Below are positions 11,718 to 17,401 of a DNA stretch of 64,000 bases, piece by piece. The notes beneath the pieces were generated by a model. The model was not told the origin of the DNA. It made no database searches and worked only from the letters and a program-made list of their open reading frames with translations. Position numbers and translations under genes: made by a program. Where the stretch lies: positions 403,232 through 467,231 of the forward strand of contig DASSDB010000002.1 in assembly GCA_035697325.1 (NCBI GenBank), read 5' to 3'. Source of the DNA: Candidatus Saccharimonadales bacterium. GTDB lineage: Bacteria > Patescibacteriota > Saccharimonadia > Saccharimonadales > Saccharimonadaceae. The stretch's first letter is position 1. Each line of letters starts with the position of its first letter.

Positions 11718-11967
11718 TAGCACATTTGTGTGCTCGTCTACTCAGTATAGCTTTAGGGCTCTACCTGCGAGTGGGGAGTACGGGACATAAGTGAGCCTAC
11801 CAGAATTGTCGTACGGATACTTGCTTTAAAGCATCTTCCCCTAATATCAGCTAATAAAAGGTCGATATGTATCCCGTTCTTTTGCGAGAAGAAAGACTCA
11901 GTACGGTAGACGCCTTTACAGTAATGTAAACGGCAGGAGAACGATTATTCGTGCATCAGATAATATC
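11718..11967 (+). promoter_or_regulatory. Long structured 5' leader, candidate riboswitch or RNA regulator
   Basis: No ORF fills this leader. It begins with a perfect hairpin AGCACA-TTTG-TGTGCT (11719-11734). A long-range pairing joins ACGGGA-CATA (near 11780) and TATG-TA-TCCCGT (near 11866), and a TTTACA/TGTAAA hairpin sits just before AGGAG at 11935-11939. A peptidoglycan hydrolase follows; such genes are controlled by c-di-AMP riboswitches in other bacteria, but I do not find the conserved ydaO blocks here. The pairings were found by eye only. Confidence 0.45.
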
Positions 11968-14542: not shown

Positions 14543-15226
14543 ATGAATTCGCTGATCGACTACATCGTGGAATGTGCGCAGGCGACCGAACGGACGCCAT
14601 GGGAGGTAGAGCCGAAGGTTCAAAGGGGACTGGTACAGAATACGGGGTATTTTTTGCCTCGTAAGGTGTTGGCGCAGGTCTTCGAGTTTCCGGACATGTT
14701 TGGGCACAACGCAATCCTCTCGTATAAAGGGGGTGAATTCCCGGCGAGCATGTTAACCAGCGAGACCGCACTTCGTAGCTTTATGGACGAAAACGGTGCT
14801 TCGCTAGTAATTCCCGGATTGCAAAAGCTGAGCGAGCCGCTCCGAATGGTGTGCGAACGTGCATGCAACCAGACAGGCCTGGAAATGTTCGCAACAGGAT
14901 TCGGTACGCCTGCCGGAAAAGAAGGGCTCGAGGTACACTGGGACATGGGCACGGTAGTCGTAGCCCAACTCGATGGTGTGAAGCATTGGCGGCTATGGCC
15001 GCCGGTTGTAAGAACACTCGAGGAGCTTCGTCAGCCGCGGCATATCACGCCGGAAGAAAAAACCGCCCAGCCCTTTCTCGAACTACAGCTTCAGCCGGGG
15101 GACGTACTGTTCCTCCCCCGAGGCTGGCTCCATACCGCCGCGTGTCGGGAAGTTTCGTCTTTTCATGTAAGTATTGGTGTTGTCCATGGAGACATGCGAC
15201 GCCTAAAACTGCGCAGCATGTCGTAA
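14543..15226 (+). CDS. JmjC/cupin-4 2-oxoglutarate oxygenase-like protein
   Basis: The 227 aa protein carries a JmjC-type double-stranded beta-helix. The iron triad is visible: His132 and Asp134 in VHWDMG, and His197 in LPRGWLHTA. KHWRLWPP (about 147-154) matches the usual substrate/2-oxoglutarate strand. The order and spacing fit the ribosomal-oxygenase group (YcfD/RoxA, MINA53, NO66), which hydroxylate ribosomal proteins. The C-terminal winged-helix part of those enzymes is missing, so the substrate is open. The gene is GC-rich, with its own promoter, GAGGAGG Shine-Dalgarno and perfect 13 bp terminator. Confidence 0.82.
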   Translation: MNSLIDYIVECAQATERTPWEVEPKVQRGLVQNTGYFLPRKVLAQVFEFPDMFGHNAILSYKGGEFPASMLTSETALRSFMDENGASLVIPGLQKLSEPLRMVCERACNQTGLEMFATGFGTPAGKEGLEVHWDMGTVVVAQLDGVKHWRLWPPVVRTLEELRQPRHITPEEKTAQPFLELQLQPGDVLFLPRGWLHTAACREVSSFHVSIGVVHGDMRRLKLRSMS

Positions 15227-15279: not shown

Positions 15280-15308
15280 TTGACTTATTTTTATTAAAGT
15301 TATATAAT
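15280..15308 (+). promoter_or_regulatory. Strong promoter of the large RNA
   Basis: TTGACT (15280-15285), exact 17 bp spacer, perfect TATAAT (15303-15308). It lies just after the upstream terminator, so it serves only the RNA. Start about 15315. Confidence 0.8.
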
Positions 15309-15314
15309 TGAAGT

Positions 15315-15934
15315 ATATTCAGTGAAACAAGTATTTCATCTGAGTTTTTAACAAGTTGAATATATGCAACGTGTGAGTGTAGATTTTTGGAATACAATAT
15401 ATATGCCAAAAACCTGCACTCACCGCAAAGGGCCCTTGCGGTCGGGAAGTGCAGCAACAAGCAGACGATTCTAAAGGATTGGATGGTTGCATGCGCGACC
15501 CGCCGTAGCGACTTTTGTTTTTGTCCGTGCGGTAACTCATGGCGCACTACCCCCCCTCGACAAAGCCGGCCTGTGATGGGCCAAAAGGGAGATCTAATGG
15601 AGATGCACCTGTGGCCTTAGGGTGTCTTTGGCTTTAGGTGTCCGGACACCTTTGGCTGAAGAGACCCGCCCCAACCCCAAAGCGATTGGCTGGCGGAAAA
15701 CCAGCTAGTCACCGGCATAAGGCTTGCCGAGCTCGGATGTGATTTGACCAGACCTGTCCATGCGGTCGGCAAAGAGCAAGCTAGTACTGGGAGATCGGTA
15801 GAGCGCTTGTGACCCTTGTGGCTCTAAGTCGGGGAGAGGCGGCGACATATAATGCCGCTGCCTCTCCCCGCGCCTCGCATATATTCAACTTGCGCTTCCT
15901 TGCTCTGTGATGCTCGCCCTGGCGAGTTCTTTTT
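15315..15934 (+). ncRNA. Large structured non-coding RNA, about 620 nt, unidentified
   Basis: There is no convincing ORF in 740 bp, but structure is dense. A perfect 16 bp stem joins the ends (15352-15367 with 15877-15892). Inside, by eye: GTGAGTG/CACTCAC (15373-15423) enclosing TTTTTGG/CCAAAAA; CCGCAA/TTGCGG (15423-15441); the palindrome AGGTGTCCGGACACCT (near 15636); GGCTGG/CCAGCT (15687-15706); TTGCCGA/TCGGCAA (15724-15772); TAGAGC/GCTCTA (15798-15825); and a very strong GGGGAGAGGC/GCCTCTCCCC hairpin (15831-15870). A terminator (CTCGCC-CT-GGCGAG plus TTCTTTTT, 15913-15934) ends it. RNase P, tmRNA, 6S and SRP signatures are not found. It resembles large ornate RNAs (OLE, ROOL, GOLLD) only in architecture. 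Confidence 0.75.
15913..15934 (+). terminator. Intrinsic terminator of the large RNA
   Basis: CTCGCC, loop CT, GGCGAG, then TTCTTTTT: a classic intrinsic terminator 21 nt after the closing stem. Confidence 0.85.
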
Positions 15935-15967: not shown

Positions 15968-17401
15968 ATGGCACAGAGTTTTTTCTTTTATGACCTTGAA
16001 ACAAGCGGACTCGATCCTCGCTCATCTCGAATTATGCAATTCGCTGGTCAGCGGACCGATATGAATTTGGAGCCGATCGGATACCCATATAATGTTTTGG
16101 TAAAGCTAAATGACGATACCTTGCCAAGCCCTGAAGCATTGATGGTAACTGGTATAACTCCGCAGGCGACTCAAGCTGATGGCTACACGGAAGCCGAATT
16201 TACGAAGATGTTGATGGGTGAAGTGTGTCAGCCGGGCACTATAATGGTAGGTTTTAATAATATTCGATTTGATGACGAGTTCGTGAGGGCGCTTTTGTGG
16301 CGGAATTTTTACGATGCTTACGAATGGGCCTGGAAAGAGTCGCGCTCGCGCTGGGATTTACTTGATGTTGTTCGTATGACGAGAGCGCTGCGCCCCGAGG
16401 GAATTAATTGGCCGGTCGTAGACGGTAAAGCAACGAACAGGCTTGAGCTTATTACGAAAGAAAATGGCATTGATCACTTTAAAGCGCACGATGCATTGAG
16501 CGATGTCGAAGCGCTTATCGCTGTGACAAAACTTATCAAAGAGAAGCAGCCGCGCTTGTACGAATATCTTCTTTCTATGCGCGACAAAAACAAAATCAAG
16601 GAGCTCGTTAATCTCGATAATAAAGAACCGTTCGTTTATTCAAGCGGTCGTTATAGTAGCGATTTTCACAAAACCACGGTAGCATTTCCGCTAACGTCGG
16701 GCAAAAATGGAAACGTCGTTGTTTATGATCTGCGTCATGATCCGAACTTATTTGTTAATTTAAATCCCGAGGACCTACGAAAAAAGTTTTATGCAACCTG
16801 GGAAGAACGAAAGGCAGAAGACTTTTTGCCGCTGCCCGTAAAAGAACTCCAGTATAACCGGGCCCCTGCCGTGGCTCCGCTTGGCGTATTGCAGCAGAAC
16901 GATGGCTGGGTCAAGTTGGGTCTGAGCCCTGAAATTATAGAAGCACACAAAATGGCGCTGCTTCACGCGCCCCATTTTGCTGAAAATATTCGTTCGTTAT
17001 ACGAAAATCGGCCAGAATACAAAAAAGCGACGGATCCAGAAGCGCAACTGTATGATGGTTTTTTGAACGATCGTGACAAGTTAAAAAGTGAGACGATACG
17101 TAATGCTTCGGAGCGTGAACTTGCCGATTATCATCCAGAGTTTACAGACGAGCGCCTAGCGCCCCTACTCTTACATTATAAGGCGCGTAATTTTCCAAAG
17201 AGTTTAAGTGAAGATGAAGCATATGCCTGGGAAGCATGGCGCTCCGCGCATATTACGGCTCAGCTTCCACAATTCATGAAATCGTTGCAACGTCTCAGCG
17301 CAACCGAGACGTCTGATGAAAAACAATTCATTCTCCAGGAACTTCAACTGTGGGCCGAGAGTGTCATGCCGGCGGATATTGAGCGAGTTCCCGAAGATTA
17401 A
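15968..17401 (+). CDS. sbcB: Exodeoxyribonuclease I (SbcB-like)
   Basis: The 477 aa protein matches the ExoI length. DEDDh exonuclease motifs: FYDLETSGLDP (Asp, Glu), FNNIRFDDEF (Asp) and HDALSDVEAL (His, Asp). The SH3-like and C-terminal ExoI domains follow (RSLYENRPEYKKATDPEAQLYDGFLNDRD is family-like). It degrades single-stranded DNA 3' to 5' and acts in mismatch repair and recombination. Its near-leaderless promoter lies just after the large RNA's terminator, so the two are separate units. Confidence 0.95.
   Translation: MAQSFFFYDLETSGLDPRSSRIMQFAGQRTDMNLEPIGYPYNVLVKLNDDTLPSPEALMVTGITPQATQADGYTEAEFTKMLMGEVCQPGTIMVGFNNIRFDDEFVRALLWRNFYDAYEWAWKESRSRWDLLDVVRMTRALRPEGINWPVVDGKATNRLELITKENGIDHFKAHDALSDVEALIAVTKLIKEKQPRLYEYLLSMRDKNKIKELVNLDNKEPFVYSSGRYSSDFHKTTVAFPLTSGKNGNVVVYDLRHDPNLFVNLNPEDLRKKFYATWEERKAEDFLPLPVKELQYNRAPAVAPLGVLQQNDGWVKLGLSPEIIEAHKMALLHAPHFAENIRSLYENRPEYKKATDPEAQLYDGFLNDRDKLKSETIRNASERELADYHPEFTDERLAPLLLHYKARNFPKSLSEDEAYAWEAWRSAHITAQLPQFMKSLQRLSATETSDEKQFILQELQLWAESVMPADIERVPED

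Follow-up and report, generated by a model that had tools for sequence, protein, structure and literature searches.

A predicted structured 620-nt transcript upstream of exonuclease I in a Saccharibacteria genome: a candidate end-sealed RNA with variable cargo

What is the large, strongly folding segment that lies between two ordinary genes of this Saccharibacteria genome, and is it a non-coding RNA? The window (the whole 64,000-nt stretch of DNA that we analyzed) contains at this place a predicted 620-nt transcript with its own promoter and terminator. A previous reading made from the letters alone (here, the sequence-only reading) had taken it for a free-standing, structured RNA, large and non-coding, of an unnamed class in Patescibacteria. 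We examined the window copy and then its counterparts in related genomes.

Fold and transcription signals of the window copy

The features of the locus are as follows.
15280 to 15308, + strand: sigma-70 type promoter (TTGACT-17-TATAAT; 11/12 matches), with promoters at the equivalent place in relatives.
15317 to 15345, + strand: 5' leader hairpin (TTCAGTGAAA...TTTCATCTGAG), found in the MFE and centroid structures; relatives have an equivalent hairpin.
15352 to 15367, + strand: closing stem, 5' strand (CAAGTTGAATATATGC), a perfect 16 bp, fitting the family consensus (ACAAGTTGRATAT) and covarying in relatives.
15370 to 15425, + strand: P2, a long hairpin just inside the closing stem in the fold of the window RNA, with a strong equivalent in relatives.
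15473 to 15478, + strand: Shine-Dalgarno (SD)-like AAAGGA (TTCTAAAGGAT; in relatives, CTGAAAGGA), seen in the sequence.
15483 to 15620, + strand: candidate ORF of 45 codons (MVACATRRSDFCFCPCGNSWRTTPPRQSRPVMGQKGDLMEMHLWP; GC3, 0.51; GC12, 0.64), without coding bias.
15597 to 15620, + strand: candidate 7-codon micro-ORF (MEMHLWP) behind AGGGAG, in frame with the 45-codon ORF and proposed by analogy with relatives.
15831 to 15870, + strand: GC-rich 3' hairpin in the fold; in relatives, too, a hairpin precedes the 3' closing strand.
15877 to 15892, + strand: closing stem, 3' strand, identified by exact pairing, fold, and covariation.
15912 to 15934, + strand: intrinsic terminator (stem at 15912 to 15927, then TCTTTTT).
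15968 to 17401, + strand: neighboring exonuclease I type gene, the marker of the conserved site, with the RNA directly upstream.

The promoter, the terminator, the internal hairpin at 15831 to 15870, and the perfect 16-bp end-to-end stem pointed out in the sequence-only reading were all recovered, the stem being exact in the sequence and present in both the MFE and centroid structures. The MFE of the window RNA was -264.9 kcal/mol, compared to -206.4 ± 6.8 kcal/mol in dinucleotide shuffles (z, -8.6), and 0 of 20 shuffles folded as low. When fold z-scores were scanned across the first 400 kb of the main contig and the window, the other outliers that we inspected were tRNAs, terminators, and the ends of coding genes. 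A pattern scan for a promoter, closing stem, and terminator over nearly all of the 1.03-Mb genome found a 16-bp stem at the window locus only; all remaining matches had 12-bp stems and were near the Markov background. The RNA is single-copy in its genome.

An Rfam search of the window locus returned nothing at threshold and, at an E value of ≤10, only chance-level matches of the miRNA hairpin type, indicating that the class is absent from Rfam. RNase P RNA had already been set aside in the sequence-only reading, correctly: the locus has no RF00010 match, and the true copy sits elsewhere in the genome (G000:C9, 264 bits). We also rejected tmRNA, as ARAGORN identified only 5 tRNAs in the window and Rfam gave no match, and OLE, GOLLD, and ROOL, for which the search of the locus gave no covariance-model match; the likeness to these three RNAs that had been suggested thus has no counterpart in sequence in the Rfam searches. 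The fold, the RNA's own signals, and the lack of an Rfam match support its assignment as a probable large, separately transcribed structured RNA of a new class.

Elsewhere in the window, a lysM-TM7 RNA (RF03005, 101.8 bits) is located at 11795 to 11939, directly 5' of a gene for a LysM-domain protein. A gene for a protein judged by eye to be cupin/JmjC-like (14543 to 15226) separates obgE from the RNA.

Units of the same plan at the exonuclease I site

Searching with the whole RNA by blastn in 295 genomes of the family identified no homologue, only chance-like pieces, and those weak matches that we inspected were ordinary coding DNA. An exact-motif scan of the genome contigs with GTGCGGTAACTCATGGCGCAC was likewise empty. 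The homologues envisaged in the sequence-only reading were missed by blastn, but units of the same plan were found by synteny, for which the DNA upstream of the exonuclease I gene was taken from many related genomes. Such units (large, strongly folding, and running from promoter to terminator) were present upstream of exonuclease I in about 38 genomes from at least 19 Saccharibacteria genera, a collection gathered at one site and partly for its structure. One genome (G100; locus L018) has three units in tandem, with a fold z-score of -13.4 for the region; in this genome the units directly follow obgE. A distant relative whose exonuclease is 47% identical also has a unit (L165).

A pattern search for closing strands in 394 genomes gave mostly chance matches, and the seven candidates inspected comprised six real units and one coding sequence; five of the six were directly upstream of exonuclease I, and the other (L197) was in that same region. 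Among viral contigs there were 14 exact matches to the 5' motif, nearly all within ORFs, and none had a promoter, a sealing partner, and a non-coding body.

The position of nearly all units found, directly upstream of the exonuclease I gene, would suit a regulatory leader of that gene. However, unit and gene are separated by a terminator and another promoter-like -10 box, the gene probably having its own promoter (TATGAT, six bases 5' of the ATG), and many other genomes, often congeneric with carriers, keep the gene with just 20 to 110 bp upstream. We consider a leader function barely plausible.

At the same site, four other loci (L125, L128, L133, and L139) have ordinary genes for membrane proteins of about 110 to 135 aa with similar promoters and 5' hairpins; in L128, a short closing stem appears to be present as well. 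Away from exonuclease I, CATTGACAATTTAGATA also occurs in another stretch (L186:1250-1900, reverse complement; G029), which is apparently non-coding and has no clear sealing partner.

The units share the order promoter, 5' hairpin, closing strand, P2, variable interior, GC-rich hairpin, 3' closing strand, and terminator, and the window copy has the whole of this plan, including the position upstream of exonuclease I. The closing strand lies 29 to 57 nt (median, 41) past the -10 box and forms a stem of 9 to 17 bp, and the closed span is 375 to 775 nt (543 in the window copy). The closing strand of the window copy, ACAAGTTGAATATAT, is a close match to the family consensus. Some relatives have the 5' hairpin core GAAAC-N-GTTTC. 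P2 is a strong hairpin (median z, -3.4; 32 units), and the GC-rich 3' hairpin of the relatives has a median z of -2.9; these inner helices were checked for presence at the equivalent place.

Between units, the closing stems have drifted fully in sequence (for example, AATTCGACAGTAC, CCAAGTCGTATCAGAG, and ACAAGGTAACGATAG), and each strand pairs with its own partner. Across 31 units, 351 of 403 closing-stem cells (87.1%) could pair, compared to a mean of 57.6% and a maximum of 65.8% in 2,000 re-deals of the 3' strands. Some of the registers were assigned manually, and a small number are misplaced, which lowers the score. Individual columns contained up to 6 pair types. This cell test replaced a self/cross duplex test on 60-nt segments, in which the signal was diluted. 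Thus, covariation in the stem, which the sequence-only reading had named as a check, is massive.

Variable interiors and their coding signals

Comparison in 60-nt blocks of two units from different genera (L019 and L033) showed 75 to 91% identity over the promoter, 5' hairpin, closing strands, P2, and terminator. Blocks lying between P2 and the 3' strand were mostly 15 to 48% identical, which is near random, and the ORFs there were unrelated. A second pair (L011 and L016) likewise had constant ends and a variable interior, with an additional conserved 3' part. Some interior elements recur, including the motif ACAACTSAAT and the module CTGAAAGGA, which was found in 12 units compared to 6 in shuffles.

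The interiors are enriched in ORFs. In 36 units, we counted 52 combinations of an SD, a start, and an ORF on the forward strand, compared to 19 on the reverse complement and 17.6 ± 4.3 in shuffles. SD-led micro-ORFs of 3 to 12 codons were enriched fourfold (37 forward and 5 reverse in 40 units; shuffles, 9.1 ± 2.8); a backward-SD control gave 21 micro-ORFs and is not clean, one cause being overlap between the reversed motifs and real SD strings. Under a strict rule, SD-ORFs were absent from several units (e.g., L023, L028, and L032). One micro-ORF ends in Gly-Phe-Thr/Ile-stop, or GF(T/I)*, and occurs in 11 copies in 10 of 41 units, all of them forward (reverse strand, 0); third-position changes in its codons are synonymous (GGY TTY AYY TAR), and examples are MHYSGFT, MVRSGFT, MDWPSGFT, MYTSGFI, and MGFT. 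A second, often basic micro-ORF lies downstream of CTGAAAGGA (MRRHM, MKKRHM, and MYKRRL).

Other units have a single ORF of 28 to 168 codons past P2. Most of these cargo ORFs, which are short, have a GC3 of about 0.7 to 0.97 with a GC12 near 0.55, compared to a GC3 of 0.40 to 0.52 for EF-Tu in their own genomes, where available. Two of the products (L187, 168 aa; L188, 115 aa) begin with stretches that by eye resemble signal peptides and so look secretion-like; neither had a significant match in Pfam or PHROG searches, and searches of plasmid, phage, and PDB sequences with the L187 protein gave no match. Three causes could account for the high GC3: repeated uptake from high-GC bacteria, translation inside the host, or constraints on the RNA.

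One reading of this codon usage is that cargo-bearing RNA enters the actinobacterial host and that translation takes place in its cells; both the protected ends and the high-GC third positions would then be explained. Actinobacteria are the hosts on which Saccharibacteria live (PMC10768705), and cargo GC3 is 0.72 to 0.97 across many genera against the lower EF-Tu values of the same genomes. Yet RNA export is an assumption, recent gene transfer accounts for GC3 equally, and the window copy lacks the bias, so that we regard this reading as highly unlikely.

The window copy itself was described earlier as having no ORF, which was too strong: an ATG at 15483 stands four bases 3' of AAAGGA and opens the 45-codon ORF, in which MEMHLWP is nested. 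Neither ORF has coding bias, the SD-ORFs are within chance expectation (one per two units), and the GF(T/I)* module was absent from the window copy. The cargo of this copy would be micro-ORFs at most, and it may thus act mainly as RNA.

These properties bear on whether the family is a genuine ornate RNA of a new class, large and non-coding. Its function would then reside in the fold (a scaffold, a cage, or an RNA that binds ribosomes), and the SD-led micro-ORFs would do no more than dock or trap ribosomes, with no role for their peptides. The very strong folding of the whole RNA, the many units without a biased ORF (the window copy included), and the recurring interior motifs all argue for this view, and there are reported precedents: ROOL matches 16S rRNA in abundance in one strain, with no known function, and GOLLD pulls down ribosomes (PMC12286853). 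However, codon-biased ORFs of up to 168 aa occupy the same end frame, GF(T/I)* is kept with synonymous changes, and the interior is unconserved even among near relatives, unlike in known ornate RNAs. We find this reading possible but doubtful. Of the earlier description, the large structured RNA class stands, and the term non-coding is doubtful for the family in view of the SD-led micro-ORFs and the longer, codon-biased ORFs in relatives.

Among type I toxins, hok mRNA has its 5' and 3' ends paired with each other, carries overlapping small ORFs, and is structured and long-lived. A transcript of this kind would be a long-lived, end-closed mRNA for a small peptide toxin, under the control of antisense RNA or refolding, and short ORFs and the gain or loss of the unit between species would be consistent with it. 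In contrast, no hydrophobic peptide is conserved among the unit ORFs, whose peptides are wholly different between species, and the window locus has no convincing antisense unit, only a weak reverse promoter-like site (15339 to 15312; 9/12 match). A hok-type mRNA is therefore very unlikely here.

Several short elements in the relatives deserve mention in their own right. Unit 2 of the tandem locus (L018:840-990) has strings (GGGGAATCGAACCCCCGTACT) similar to a tRNA T-arm in antisense, and L008 holds GGGGGTCGAACCTCC; both are possibly tRNA-derived or tRNA-pairing pieces. At L049:8730-8815 (minus strand; G000:C2, about 228730 to 228815), a long hairpin comes after a hammerhead-like core (CTGATGAGTCCAAAAGGACGAAA); Rfam made no call there at its gathering score.

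A proposed end-sealed expression scaffold and known systems

Judging from sequence comparisons, our preferred reading, to which we give about even odds (roughly 0.5), is that the window RNA belongs to a fast-evolving family of end-sealed transcripts in which swappable, ribosome-engaging cargo is carried on a long-lived RNA scaffold. Its units lie between obgE (or a neighbor) and the exonuclease I gene of Saccharibacteria. The promoter, 5' hairpin, closing stem, P2, GC-rich 3' hairpin, and terminator form a constant frame around a variable loop, and ribosomes would engage this loop. Exonucleases are slowed by double-stranded ends and terminator hairpins; with both ends closed, the RNA should therefore resist them and be long-lived. 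The cargo in relatives consists of SD-led micro-ORFs, the GF(T/I)* micro-ORF, or one longer ORF, twice secretion-like. On such a stable expression scaffold, cargo would diversify or be swapped, with selection acting where the cell meets its actinobacterial host, and the cargo products would probably be used against or in that host. A bolder proposal, which we offer tentatively, is a chromosomal cassette whose constant part is RNA: the sealed ends and P2 would be the scaffold, holding coding cargo of unrelated kinds that range from micro-peptides up to secretion-like proteins whose codon usage resembles the host's. In this episymbiont lineage, the cargo would be inserted and exchanged at a single site, perhaps so that products are delivered into the bacterial host.

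Patescibacteria have little non-coding DNA, yet many Saccharibacteria devote 400 to 900 bp to these RNAs, and one genome spends about 1.4 kb on three tandem units. For an obligate episymbiont, variation of this kind points toward the interface with its host, an area with few known effectors, and the GF(T/I)* micro-ORF is a short, testable candidate for stalling. Fixed, sealed ends around a hypervariable, apparently ribosome-engaging interior are absent from Rfam, and our search of open-access papers found no report of an end-sealed RNA family of this kind.

By the features tested, the family belongs neither to the ornate RNAs nor to the hok-type mRNAs. It resembles OLE, GOLLD, and ROOL in size, separate transcription, dense folding, long-range stems, and lack of a known job, but it differs in having no covariance-model match, a hypervariable interior, and SD-led ORFs in relatives; unlike the ornate RNAs in the tRNA islands of phages, it is tied to a single chromosomal site. 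With hok/sok it shares end-to-end pairing and small ORFs, whereas it has no conserved toxin, no antisense RNA was seen, and its interior is far larger and more variable. The SD-led ORFs of 3 to 9 codons with a fixed C terminus before the stop recall the minigene or micro-ORF of axe-txe (PMC8708949) and termination-stalling uORF peptides, but here several micro-ORFs occur per RNA within a closed scaffold, and stalling is only a candidate role. Constant ends, variable contents, and a fixed site are also typical of integrons and cassette loci; in this family, no integrase or attachment site was seen, and the constancy is that of an RNA stem. What appears to be new is that constant RNA ends are combined with contents that vary and are apparently translated.
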